IMG/VR virus record: IMGVR_UViG_3300044821_000044
Coordinates: 1 to 46,784 of that record
Direction: 5' to 3' (one strand)
DNA length: 46,784 nucleotides
Source: a virus
The notes below the pieces were generated by a model. It did no database searches and was not told the origin of the DNA. It was given only the letters and a program-made list of their open reading frames with translations. The position numbers were made by a program, and so were the translations under genes. This document shows, piece after piece, positions 2,407 to 23,776 of the stretch; within the stretch, counting starts at the first letter, position 1, and each line of letters starts with the position of its first letter.

Positions 2407-2482
2407 GAGGCACCTCCTGTTTGGCGGCACACTGAAGGTAGCGTACCGCTTTCATCAAACCATCAATGCTGTCACCTAGCAT
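2399..2482 (-). CDS. 27-residue coupled small ORF
   Basis: A 27-codon frame starts inside the stop region of the Mom-like gene (ATGCTAG overlap) and ends inside the start of the following membrane protein (ATGAGTGA overlap). It contains a plausible amphipathic helix (SIDGLMKAVRYLQCAAK). Its value may lie in translational coupling between its neighbours rather than in the peptide itself. Confidence 0.4.
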   Translation of the reverse strand: MLGDSIDGLMKAVRYLQCAAKQEVPHE

Positions 2483-3069
2483 AGATCGTACACAAACTTA
2501 TGCTTAGCGTGGTAGCCAGCTCTTACGCAGCCGATGTCCGCAAATTGCTGCGGGGTGCGACTCATTTTACCAGCTCGGCGAGACACTTGCTGTCCGGTAA
2601 TAGCGTTCACCCATCTCTGTTCTGGTTTAGTGACCCCGATGTACCGCCAATTGGCCGCGCGATAGACGTGCCCAGTATGTTCTTGAGAGAAGTCTGCGTA
2701 TGTCACTAACGTCTCGAATCGTCCGTCCTTTTTTATCAACTTAATACTACGCGAAAGCATGAATGAACACGCATTCTTCGGGACTTCAGGTTCTACTACC
2801 ATCCTAGAAAGAGATAGCACGGCGCGCGGGTTCGCTGGGTTAACAGATACTGCAGCCGGTCTTGTGGGCGGCATCCACATCAAGCATCCGTACATCTTAT
2901 CGGCGGCGTCCCACCTAAAAAGCCCGTGCGAGTATACTGCGGTGTTCGCGCTACCTCGCGCATAATGAAGACGAGCCACCATCTCACGGCACGCAGCCAA
3001 TTCTGCCGGCGCCACAAACCACTCGGATGCTTTTAATCTATCGCCTATCAGGTCATATATGCTAGACAT
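2476..3069 (-). CDS. Mom-like GNAT-fold DNA modification protein
   Basis: This 197-residue protein has the pattern of the phage Mom-like/GNAT family. In phage Mu, Mom converts adenine to N6-carbamoylmethyladenine and so protects phage DNA from restriction. Key segments are LSRMVVEPEVPKNACSFML (about 86-104), the helix SRSIKLIKK, and the signature LVTYADFSQEHTGHVYRAAN (about 120-139) followed by WRYIGVT. Length and layout fit stand-alone Mom-like proteins. It lies directly downstream of the DNA polymerase in the operon, which suits a role on newly made DNA. The family call is by motif recognition; the actual modification is inferred. Confidence 0.65.
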   Translation of the reverse strand: MSSIYDLIGDRLKASEWFVAPAELAACREMVARLHYARGSANTAVYSHGLFRWDAADKMYGCLMWMPPTRPAAVSVNPANPRAVLSLSRMVVEPEVPKNACSFMLSRSIKLIKKDGRFETLVTYADFSQEHTGHVYRAANWRYIGVTKPEQRWVNAITGQQVSRRAGKMSRTPQQFADIGCVRAGYHAKHKFVYDLC

Positions 3070-5896: not shown

Positions 5897-6037
5897 CTAC
5901 TGAGTGACCGGCTGCGCGGTTTCGTAGGTTACCTGGTCTTCCGCCGGGATGGCGTTGTCCAGGACCGGCTGCACGGCCGGCGCTACACCCCTGTGTTGGG
6001 GGTTGTTCATTCGAACGATGTCTTCGAGTGCGTACAT
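5897..6037 (-). CDS. 46-residue hypothetical protein
   Basis: A small gene with a near-perfect ribosome-binding site (AGGAGGTGATTTT before ATG). The product starts MYALEDIVRMNNPQHRGVAP and continues as an acidic, proline/valine/glutamine-rich tail. It is the first gene after the permuted tRNA-like element, so its leader RNA carries that structure. No family is recognised. Confidence 0.6.
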   Translation of the reverse strand: MYALEDIVRMNNPQHRGVAPAVQPVLDNAIPAEDQVTYETAQPVTQ

Positions 6038-6074
6038 AAAATCACCTCCTATGTTGCAGAGTCCAAGCAACTCG

Positions 6075-6186
6075 TTTATATCAGACCAAAAAGCGGGGGA
6101 GTGCTGCCACTACACCATCGGCACGGATCTCGCCGTGCTCTGCCGGATTCGAACCTGCCCCCACCCCTAGACCTTTAGATCAGACC
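6075..6186. repeat. 13-bp imperfect direct repeats flanking the tRNA-like element
   Basis: TTTATATCAGACC (6075-6087) and TTTAGATCAGACC (6174-6186) differ at one base and are 99 bp apart. The second copy contains the last codons and stop of the DUF2815 gene. Together they bracket the permuted tRNA-like element, which looks like a target-site duplication or the trace of a circular intermediate. Confidence 0.6.
6095..6168 (-). ncRNA. circularly permuted tRNA-like element
   Basis: Read on the minus strand, a canonical T-arm comes first: stem GCAGG, loop TTCGAAT, stem CCGGC at 6158-6142. A six-pair stem GCACGG/CCGTGC closed by the loop CGAGAT follows (6138-6121). Then comes a canonical D-arm (stem GTGT, loop AGTGGCA, stem GCAC; 6115-6101) preceded by TG, like tRNA positions 8-9. 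The outer GGGG (6167-6164) and CCCCC (6099-6095) can pair as an anticodon-type stem. The order of halves is therefore 3' half, acceptor joined by a short loop, 5' half: a permuted cloverleaf. A CTTTTT run follows the C tract. No CCA is encoded, and the anticodon loop is left open. The 5' part resembles tRNA-Gln-type sequences, but an identity is not claimed. Confidence 0.6.
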
Positions 6187-6858
6187 GGCGCCGCCCGTGG
6201 CCGGAGCCGCGGCACCTGCCGGCGCCGCGTCCGCGTCCTGCGGGACCAGACCGAACTCGGAACCGCTCGCGACCGAGGAGCCGCGGAGCCGCGTCCCATG
6301 CTTCGCGAACTGCACGCCGAGGACGGAGCAGCCGATGCCCGGGCTGTTGCCGTAGACGTAGGAGTAGAACTCCAGGAGCACGTTCGCGTAGCAGCCGTCA
6401 TACGGCCAGCACGGGTGCGACGGGGTCAGCACCACCGGGCTCCCGCCGAGAGCCTGCGGACGGTTCGAGATGTTGACGCCGTTCTCCGTCACCAGGATCG
6501 TCGGCTGGTCCTTATTCCCAGCGGAGATGTAGAGCATACCCGCGTAGTCCGGTTTACCCGGGCGGTACTGGTCACCGCGCTGCAGCGGGAAGCGCTGGTT
6601 GTTCCCCTTGATCATGTCCAGGTTCTGCTGCGCCAGCTCCTTCCACTTCGCGTTCGCGATGTTGCGGATGATGGTCTGCAGCTCCGGGAACTGGGGGTGC
6701 GTCGGCGGGAAGACCGCGTCGATGTGGTACTTGCCCTCGGCCTTGCCCGTCGTCGGGTCGACCTTCGCGTCCTTGCCCACGTAGGGCTTCGTCAGCGAGA
6801 CGCGCAGCAGCCGCACGTTCTCCATCTTGATCTGCCTGTTTACTGTGACTTCGCTCAT
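6175..6858 (-). CDS. DUF2815 single-stranded DNA-binding protein
   Basis: This 227-residue protein matches the DUF2815 family, phage proteins of OB-fold type thought to act as single-stranded DNA-binding proteins beside a family A polymerase. Diagnostic stretches are VRLLRVSLTKPY (about 15-26), GKYHIDAVFPPTHPQ, then RPGKPDYAGMLYISAG and SHPCWPYDGCYANVLLEFYS. The last 25 residues are alanine/proline/glycine-rich with few acidic residues, unlike the acidic tails common in bacterial SSBs. The ATG at 6858 has AGGAGATTAGGTA upstream. The neighbouring DUF2800 nuclease and polymerase are its usual partners. Confidence 0.88.
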   Translation of the reverse strand: MSEVTVNRQIKMENVRLLRVSLTKPYVGKDAKVDPTTGKAEGKYHIDAVFPPTHPQFPELQTIIRNIANAKWKELAQQNLDMIKGNNQRFPLQRGDQYRPGKPDYAGMLYISAGNKDQPTILVTENGVNISNRPQALGGSPVVLTPSHPCWPYDGCYANVLLEFYSYVYGNSPGIGCSVLGVQFAKHGTRLRGSSVASGSEFGLVPQDADAAPAGAAAPATGGAGLI

Positions 6859-6884: not shown

Positions 6885-8087
6885 TCAAACTAGCCCCGGC
6901 TCCTGCGTCGGGATGAACTGGATCGGCGTCACCGCCTCCCCCTTGTGGTCTAGTGGCACCAGCCGCAGCTGCGGCTCCGACTGCGTCACCAGATCCTCGA
7001 TTGCTCCGTAGCTTTTCTTCAGAATTTTCTCCGCCTGAGTCGGCGAGACTATCTCGCGCGGCTCGTAAATTTTCGCCGGGTCCGCGAGCAGCTGCAGCGC
7101 TGCCTCGGCCTTCGCCTTGTCCGTCCACTGCCGGCGGCCCTTGTTGCCGTACACCAGCTTCTGACCATCCACGATAACACCCAGCTTCGCTCGGCGCAAG
7201 GCTTCGGCGCGAAAGTCACTGACCGCGGCCTCGATCTCATCGAGCTGCGCGTAGACAACGCCCAGGGACTTGTCGTCCAGCTCGTGACGCTTGATCAGCG
7301 GCTCGAACAGCGACATGATCCGCTTCGCGCGGGCGACGCACCGCCCCCGGACCTCGCAGTAGGTACACTGCTCCTCCCCGGCCACCAGGTGCTTCTGCGG
7401 ATCGAAGGGTACGGTCTCGTGGTAGATGTCGTACGCCAGCTTCGCAACGGGTCGCACCAGCGCCATGAAGGCTTCTAACTCCGCGCGGGTGTACGTCCAC
7501 TCGTCGTAGTGGTTCAGCTTCGGCTGGTGGATCACGAACCGGAACGCATTGAAGTCGCCGACGAGGCTGAACTCGATCATCGCGGCGCAGAGATAGATCA
7601 GCCCCTGGGTGTTGTCCCTCGCGTTGACGAGGAGGTAGCCGTCCTTGTAGTCGTGGACAGACAGCACGCCCTTGTGTAGCTGCTCGTTGACGACGGCGCC
7701 GCCCTCGGGGTACAGCTTGATGATGTCGGAGTGCCCCTCCTGGTCCGGGACACCGAGCACCGGCGTCGTGTTGAGGCGGTGCTCTACCAGCATCTCCCCC
7801 GGCTCCCGGTTGATCACGTTGACGCAGGAGCGGACACGGTCCAGGCGCTCCTCGTCGACCTTGAACGTGAAGGCCGGGTTCTCGCCGAAGGTAAGTTCTT
7901 TACCTAGCCAGCTGTCCAAGTTAAGCGAAGGGTGCTCAAGTTGCCACTCCAGCAGCCAGTGGGAGCAGGTCCCGCTGGCACTGTGCTCCTTATCCGGGTC
8001 CGGGACACCGCGCGAGAGGTAGAGCGCGCCGACGCAGCGAAGCCAGCGGGAGGAACCCGAGGGGGCTAAAATAGAATGTGAACTCAA
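6885..8087 (-). CDS. DUF2800 RecB/Cas4-like nuclease
   Basis: A 400-residue PD-(D/E)XK-type protein of the DUF2800 family, expected to trim DNA ends during phage replication or recombination. It shows an early HSILAPSGSSRWLRCVG segment, an invariant-looking GHSD, and the VHDYKDG motif with the catalytic Asp and Lys. A C-terminal cysteine cluster EQCTYCEVRGRC, with the early Cys, could hold an Fe-S cluster as in Cas4/AddB nucleases. The TTG at 8087 is preferred because GAGGTACGTGTC precedes it and the protein then starts like its relatives; a longer frame starts at 8108. It sits between DUF2815 and a small HExxH protein. Confidence 0.85.
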   Translation of the reverse strand: MSSHSILAPSGSSRWLRCVGALYLSRGVPDPDKEHSASGTCSHWLLEWQLEHPSLNLDSWLGKELTFGENPAFTFKVDEERLDRVRSCVNVINREPGEMLVEHRLNTTPVLGVPDQEGHSDIIKLYPEGGAVVNEQLHKGVLSVHDYKDGYLLVNARDNTQGLIYLCAAMIEFSLVGDFNAFRFVIHQPKLNHYDEWTYTRAELEAFMALVRPVAKLAYDIYHETVPFDPQKHLVAGEEQCTYCEVRGRCVARAKRIMSLFEPLIKRHELDDKSLGVVYAQLDEIEAAVSDFRAEALRRAKLGVIVDGQKLVYGNKGRRQWTDKAKAEAALQLLADPAKIYEPREIVSPTQAEKILKKSYGAIEDLVTQSEPQLRLVPLDHKGEAVTPIQFIPTQEPGLV

Positions 8088-23619: not shown

Positions 23620-23694
23620 TGGCGTGTAGCTCAGTGGCAGAGCAAGCCGCTGTTAACGGCTAGGTCGAAGGTTCGAATCCTTCCTCGCCAGCCA
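23620..23694 (+). tRNA. tRNA-Asn (GTT)
   Basis: A full cloverleaf: acceptor TGGCGTG/CTCGCCA with one T-T mismatch, D-arm GCTC-AGTGGCA-GAGC, anticodon arm AGCCG-CTGTTAA-CGGCT with anticodon GTT, T-arm GAAGG-TTCGAAT-CCTTC, discriminator G and an encoded CCA. The Asn-rich virion proteins downstream could explain its retention. Confidence 0.95.
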
Positions 23695-23700
23695 GACTTT

Positions 23701-23776
23701 CGCGGGATGATCTAGTGGACTACGATCCGGGACTCATATTCCCGGTACGCGGGTTCGAATCCCGCTCCCGCAACCA
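23701..23776 (+). tRNA. tRNA-Met-like (CAT) with initiator-type acceptor
   Basis: A cloverleaf with anticodon arm CGGGA-CTCATAT-TCCCG (anticodon CAT), T-arm GCGGG-TTCGAAT-CCCGC, discriminator A and encoded CCA. The acceptor is CGCGGGA/TCCCGCA, with a C1-A72 mismatch, the hallmark of bacterial initiator tRNA. The D-stem, however, has an elongator-type T11-A24 pair, and the GGG/CCC run in the anticodon stem is shifted by one position. It could be a phage initiator-like tRNA, an elongator Met, or an Ile(CAU) tRNA modified by TilS. Confidence 0.9.

Follow-up and report, generated by a model that had tools for sequence, protein, structure and literature searches.

A tRNA-like Element Separates Two Replication Genes

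The DNA that we analyzed, referred to below as the window, is a virus record 46,784 bases long. On its minus strand, a gene for an Enc34/Gp2.5-like single-stranded DNA-binding protein (SSB) of 227 amino acids (6175–6858; Pfam PF10991, E 5.9e-20; phrog_112, E 1.2e-24) is separated by a structured intergenic element from a small open reading frame of 46 amino acids (5897–6037) that is equipped with a strong ribosome-binding site (AGGAGGTG). Upstream of the SSB gene, the same strand carries genes for an exonuclease-like DUF2800 protein and a primase-like protein, while the small reading frame downstream of the element is accompanied, again on this strand, by a 110-amino-acid reading frame and by genes for PolA, a Mom-like protein and a helicase. 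The Mom-like DNA modification protein (2476–3069, minus strand; Pfam E 1.4e-27) adjoins PolA.

Read on the minus strand, the element comprises, in this order, a G tract (GGGGTGGGG, 6167–6159), a T-arm (GCAGG-TTCGAAT-CCGGC, 6142–6158), a 6-bp acceptor-type hairpin (GCACGG-CGAGAT-CCGTGC, 6121–6138), a D-arm with GG in its loop (GTGT-AGTGGCA-GCAC, 6101–6115), a C tract (6099–6095) and a run of five U residues (TTTTT, 6088–6092). The segment from the T-arm through the closed hairpin to the D-arm (6158–6101) is designated here the permuted module. An earlier note on this sequence had placed the T-arm, the CGAGAT-closed stem, the D-arm and the two tracts exactly where we find them. The 5′ arm of the outer stem, which includes the G tract (AGGGGTGGGG, 6159–6168) and stands at the position of an anticodon stem, pairs with the 3′ arm (CCCCCGCTTT, 6090–6099) in the best predicted fold as well as in a fold constrained to the permuted arms. 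This outer stem depends on G.U pairs, and its extended form overlaps the first three residues of the U tract.

The letters of the T-loop and the D-loop that are generally required for a tRNA elbow are intact in the element. A central A.G mismatch leaves four of the five pairs of the T-stem, and an unpaired 3 × 3 patch (AGA/CGA) separates the acceptor-type helix from the T-arm and the D-arm. There is no anticodon-type arm. Neither of the tRNA halves that would flank a junction of two tRNA genes is present around the element: upstream, the T-arm is preceded by the SSB stop codon at a distance of 16 nt, and downstream, the D-arm runs directly into the C tract. With these halves missing and with the hairpin centered between the arms, the permuted order of the halves reported in the earlier note is confirmed. 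A motif scan of the window revealed only the T-arm at 6142–6158 outside of the window's own tRNA genes. The latter are tandem tRNA-Asn(GTT) and tRNA-Met(CAT) genes (23620–23776, plus strand).

The T-arm and the D-arm Score as tRNA Parts

A covariance model (R1) built from 22 other phage elements with the same order of arms scored the element at 37.9 bits (E 1e-10; next best match 18.5), a value that is inflated and circular, because the pattern used to collect the elements in R1 had been taken from the window itself. We therefore built a second model (R2) from 11 Y RNAs adjacent to Ro60 genes, which had not been picked for a match to the letters of the window. R2 matched the T-arm and the D-arm as R1 did and gave the element 24.9 bits (E 4.9e-6). 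The T-arm and the D-arm are of the tRNA type beyond reasonable doubt. R2 gives, however, the junction of the window's own tRNA-Asn and tRNA-Met genes an even higher score (31.0 bits). Hence, the permuted reading rests on the centered hairpin and on the absence of flanking tRNA halves. When the spacer between the two arms was shuffled, a hairpin of at least 6 bp arose in 7% of the shuffles, and one centered as in the element in 1.8%.

The permuted fold (−29.8 kcal/mol) is 4 kcal/mol less stable than the best predicted fold (−33.8 kcal/mol), and the latter is no more stable than the folds of shuffled sequences (z −0.47). ARAGORN, which the earlier note had recommended, called no tRNA at the element when run on the window, nor did Rfam, whose tRNA family RF00005 was not matched there. 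Searches of phages, plasmids and IMG/VR yielded no DNA-level relatives of note.

A Terminator-like Feature Recurs behind the SSB Gene

For comparison, we assembled 21 sites located behind SSB genes, comprising 12 loci found via the SSB protein, a few phages from later scans and six isolates; the sample hence represents one phage group plus six distant isolates rather than phages in general. No SSB relatives were found in GTDB genomes. Strong stems can form after the SSB stop codon at most of these sites and differ in kind. A terminator-like stem followed by a U tract is present directly after the stop codon in 12 of the 21 phages, compared with 2.9 expected from shuffled sequences. The script used for this comparison accepts any stem of at least 6 bp with a loop of any length, and a comparable stem is found in 21% of the shuffles of the window's own intergenic region; single matches are therefore weak, and it is the count of 12 that constitutes the evidence. 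On the basis of this excess, termination or attenuation after SSB is the role of the site with the best support.

Short terminators of the ordinary kind occur at the 3′ end of the SSB gene in the locus L117, in Yersinia phage YeP5 and in Bordetella phage BPP-1, and stem-loops of about 47–103 nt are found in other relatives. The window element has the GC-rich stem (GGGTGGGGG/CCCCCGCTT) followed at once by T residues that is a feature of intrinsic terminators, and a loop of about 58 nt in place of the short loop (3–8 nt) typical of them; a standard terminator scan, which allows loops of 3–8 nt only, does not list it. Taken together, termination at the element is moderately supported.

Three close relatives (L090, L096, and L098) carry a complete T-arm at the SSB 3′ site in a non-permuted order, enclosed by a 7-bp outer stem that shows paired changes and has a U tract behind it. 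In the loci of 18 relatives, no other complete T-arm motif lies outside of tRNA genes. The permuted module itself is present at this site in none of the 14 SSB relatives, and there is consequently no covariation to be had for the window element itself. The earlier note had made compensatory changes in relatives a touchstone for its proposal; the 14 relatives without a permuted element count against it in part, and the other T-arm elements in three of them qualify this outcome. A pattern search for further terminator-borne permuted modules retrieved tandem tRNAs and additional permuted modules, none of them seen in this terminator arrangement. A different structured element, GAGTCCCGCCC-[variable stem]-GGGAGATGGGC, follows the SSB stop codon in five relatives (L089, L091, L092, L095, and L097), in most cases with no U tract.

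The Permuted Module Has the Layout of the tRNA-like Domain of Bacterial Y RNAs

Bacterial Y RNAs are encoded together with Ro60 in RNA-repair operons (PMC7790460). The tRNA-like domain of the Y RNA YrlA (Chen et al., 2014; PDB 6CU1, both as cited in PMC8394870) is described as binding PNPase and as a substrate of TruB and DusA (PMC8394870). This domain, which the earlier note did not consider, is the right comparison for the window element.

Scanning IMG/VR with a T-arm/D-arm pattern yielded 77 loci. Roughly half of these are tandem tRNAs; among the others are many elements in which a T-arm is followed by a hairpin-closed acceptor helix and then by a D-arm. Across 22 such phage elements, 98.9% of the cells are paired (71.5% in shuffles), with paired changes at 10 of 16 pairs. 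Ro60 (TROVE) genes are also present in six of the phage records tested, and in several phages (L044, L059, L064, and L039) the element is situated within about a kilobase of the Ro60 gene, on its upstream side. Matches to R1 were likewise found beside bacterial Ro60 genes, for example in the gap between rsr and rtcB in Methylosinus and Rhizobium. The 11 Ro60-adjacent elements covary strongly, with 98.8% of their cells paired and paired changes at 14 of 16 pairs. Because the Rfam consensus of YrlA (RF02553), the Ro60-adjacent RNAs and the window element all present a T-arm, a closed acceptor hairpin and a D-arm in the same order, the layout corresponds to the tRNA-like domain of bacterial Y RNAs.

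By layout, then, the window element is a Y RNA; the other tests speak against this assignment. The Rfam covariance model of YrlA did not match positions 6060–6200 at E ≤ 10, and no other Rfam family matches the element. The TROVE domain (PF05731) was found neither in the record nor in the 14 relatives, although all of these records, that of the window included, may be fragments. The motifs that characterize the basal stem of Ro60-adjacent RNAs, GGGTCGA...GGTTATC at actinobacterial and phage loci and GAATGC...AACTAC at rsr-rtcB loci, are absent from positions 6060–6200 by inspection. The acceptor helix of true members is moreover a continuous 7-bp helix, whereas that of the window element is offset by the 3 × 3 patch. 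By eye, many of the Ro60-adjacent Y RNAs (L131–L135, L081, L129, and L130) appear to have a small hairpin directly 5′ of the T-arm, with a 7-nt loop and a U at the U33 position; the Rfam YrlA consensus is without it.

A Family of Permuted RNAs without Ro60

A separate family, found in cyanophage-like genomes, comprises 19 distinct elements from phage loci, many of them beside tRNA genes (L003, L005, L010, L015, L016, L032, L036, L041, L046, L051, L052, L054, L060, L062, L070, and L079). One member (L079, 6000–6119) belongs to Synechococcus phage BUCT-ZZ01, whose genome is complete; it occupies positions 122115–122237 of ON615601.1 and is left un-annotated in the record of the isolate. The members share the T-arm, the closed acceptor helix and the D-arm, and have in common an outer stem (AGGTTCT/AGAACCT), a TTTCAGCAAT motif and an anticodon-type arm with a 7-nt loop. 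Across the family, 98.3% of the cells are paired, and paired changes occur at sixteen pairs, in all five helices. TROVE was not found in the tested records of this family. We found no description of this group in the literature; key papers on Y RNAs lay outside of our search, so that we make no claim to priority.

Two further loci, L065 (about 1–480) and L055 (around the match at 7165–7217, minus strand), hold tRNAs in normal order with an apparent insert of ~40–75 nt between the D-arm and the anticodon arm. By eye, the insert of L065 contains TTTCAG...ACAGCA and a stretch complementary to the region of the anticodon loop. ARAGORN did not call these insert-bearing tRNAs in the scanned stretches.

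A Direct Repeat Brackets the Element

The element is flanked by a 13-bp direct repeat whose copies agree at 12 of 13 positions. Copy 1 (GGTCTGATCTAAA, 6174–6186) is formed by the 3′ end of the SSB gene including its stop codon, and copy 2 (GGTCTGATATAAA, 6075–6087) follows directly after the U tract. The repeat was first spotted by eye and then evaluated against shuffled sequences (P about 0.001); none of the 14 relatives has such a repeat. Since copy 1 of the flanking repeat coincides with the 3′ end of the SSB gene, the module probably arrived there by insertion or recombination. An attP origin was discarded, given that the element has no CCA end and includes the D-arm, and that the recombinase of the window is of the resolvase type and encoded about 3 kb away.

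Discussion

We consider it an even call that the element is the terminator of the SSB operon with a Y-RNA-type tRNA mimic in its loop. Its position directly after the SSB stop codon and in front of a small reading frame with a strong ribosome-binding site is consistent with a terminator. The element would then form the 3′ end of the SSB transcript, and the stem built by the G tract and the C tract, with the U5 run behind it, would act as a terminator or attenuator that sets SSB apart from the replication genes downstream (the small reading frame, the 110-amino-acid reading frame and PolA). The loop of this stem would bear a tRNA-elbow module whose T-arm, closed acceptor hairpin and D-arm follow one another as in Y RNAs. 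By folding on itself, the loop could bring the G tract and the C tract, which lie far apart, into contact, and transcription would thereby stop or be attenuated after SSB. The released or read-through RNA would carry a tRNA-like knob, whose putative function would be that of a mimic; judging from published YrlA, PNPase, TruB, and DusA are candidate partners. Two of the options that the earlier note had offered, a regulatory tRNA mimic and a structured terminator, are thereby retained and combined, and its third, a processed tRNA, does not fit.

Several other explanations have to be weighed against this terminator with a mimic in its loop. Circularly permuted tRNA genes occur in some algae and archaea, and the order of the halves would agree with such a gene, processed to a working tRNA, as the earlier note had suggested. 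However, the element has no anticodon arm or loop, its two acceptor strands are joined by the 6-nt CGAGAT loop, which leaves no room for mature ends or CCA, and neither ARAGORN nor Rfam called a tRNA; this highly improbable reading is nearly refuted. That the element could instead be the functionless, decayed junction of two tandem tRNA genes, with the T-arm of one, the D-arm of the next and a hairpin between them due to chance, is suggested by the higher R2 score of the tRNA-Asn/tRNA-Met junction (31.0 versus 24.9 bits), by the T-stem mismatch and the 3 × 3 gap, which resemble decay, and by the direct repeat, which suggests insertion. We regard this as unlikely, with both flanking tRNA halves missing, a centered 6-bp hairpin in 1.8% of the shuffles, and the element enclosed in a stem of the terminator type, at a position where other T-arm RNAs are maintained in relatives.

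Quite unlikely, too, is a bona fide Y RNA that is bound by a host Ro60/Rsr protein and uses its tRNA-like domain as an effector module. Its order of arms is that of YrlA, many phages carry Ro60 and such RNAs adjoin the Ro60 gene, but this record and the 14 relatives lack TROVE, and both the basal-stem motifs and an Rfam YrlA match are wanting. tRNA enzymes recognize a T-arm that is stacked near an acceptor-type helix. The element with its T-arm near such a helix might accordingly be a processing site at which host RNase P or another tRNA enzyme cuts the message between SSB and the downstream genes, and T-arms do recur at the SSB 3′ site; no 3′ RCCA is found beside the helix, though, the 3 × 3 mismatch lies between it and the T-arm, and the U tract favors termination, which makes a processing site improbable.

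On a broader scale, it is conceivable, if doubtful, that phages employ permuted tRNA mimics of the Y-RNA type without Ro60, in the form of the conserved cyanophage-like family and of the terminator-borne variant at the SSB 3′ end, and that the shared elbow would bind tRNA enzymes or nucleases of the host rather than Ro60. If this is true, the tRNA-mimic fold of Y RNAs would be separable from Ro60, and phages would have put it to new use, in one case within a terminator. The permuted family that lacks Ro60 would then allow the tRNA-like half of a Y RNA to be tested directly for what it does alone. Permuted tRNA-like modules at the phage loci scanned were missed by ARAGORN and by Rfam at its thresholds.

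Like the permuted tRNA genes of algae and archaea, the window element has the 3′ part (T-arm) ahead of the 5′ part (D-arm); unlike them, it lacks an anticodon and mature ends. A permuted tRNA-like order is also seen in permuted tmRNA (Rfam RF04321), a candidate that was dropped since an Rfam model search of the window region gave no hit at E ≤ 10. With the intrinsic (rho-independent) terminators of YeP5, BPP-1, and L117, the element shares a GC-rich closing stem and a U tract immediately behind the SSB gene, and it differs from them in its ~58-nt loop that holds a tRNA-like module. In common with YrlA, it has the T-arm, the hairpin-closed acceptor helix and the D-arm in the same order, and its two ends pair where an anticodon stem would be. 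It departs from YrlA in the absence of a Ro60-binding basal stem and of a Ro60 gene, in its imperfect T-stem and offset acceptor helix, and in the U tract directly after the closing stem. Collectively, this tRNA-type element, which is not due to chance and is set in Y-RNA order within a terminator-like stem, is a variant of the known Y RNA layout with a putative role at the 3′ end of the SSB message.
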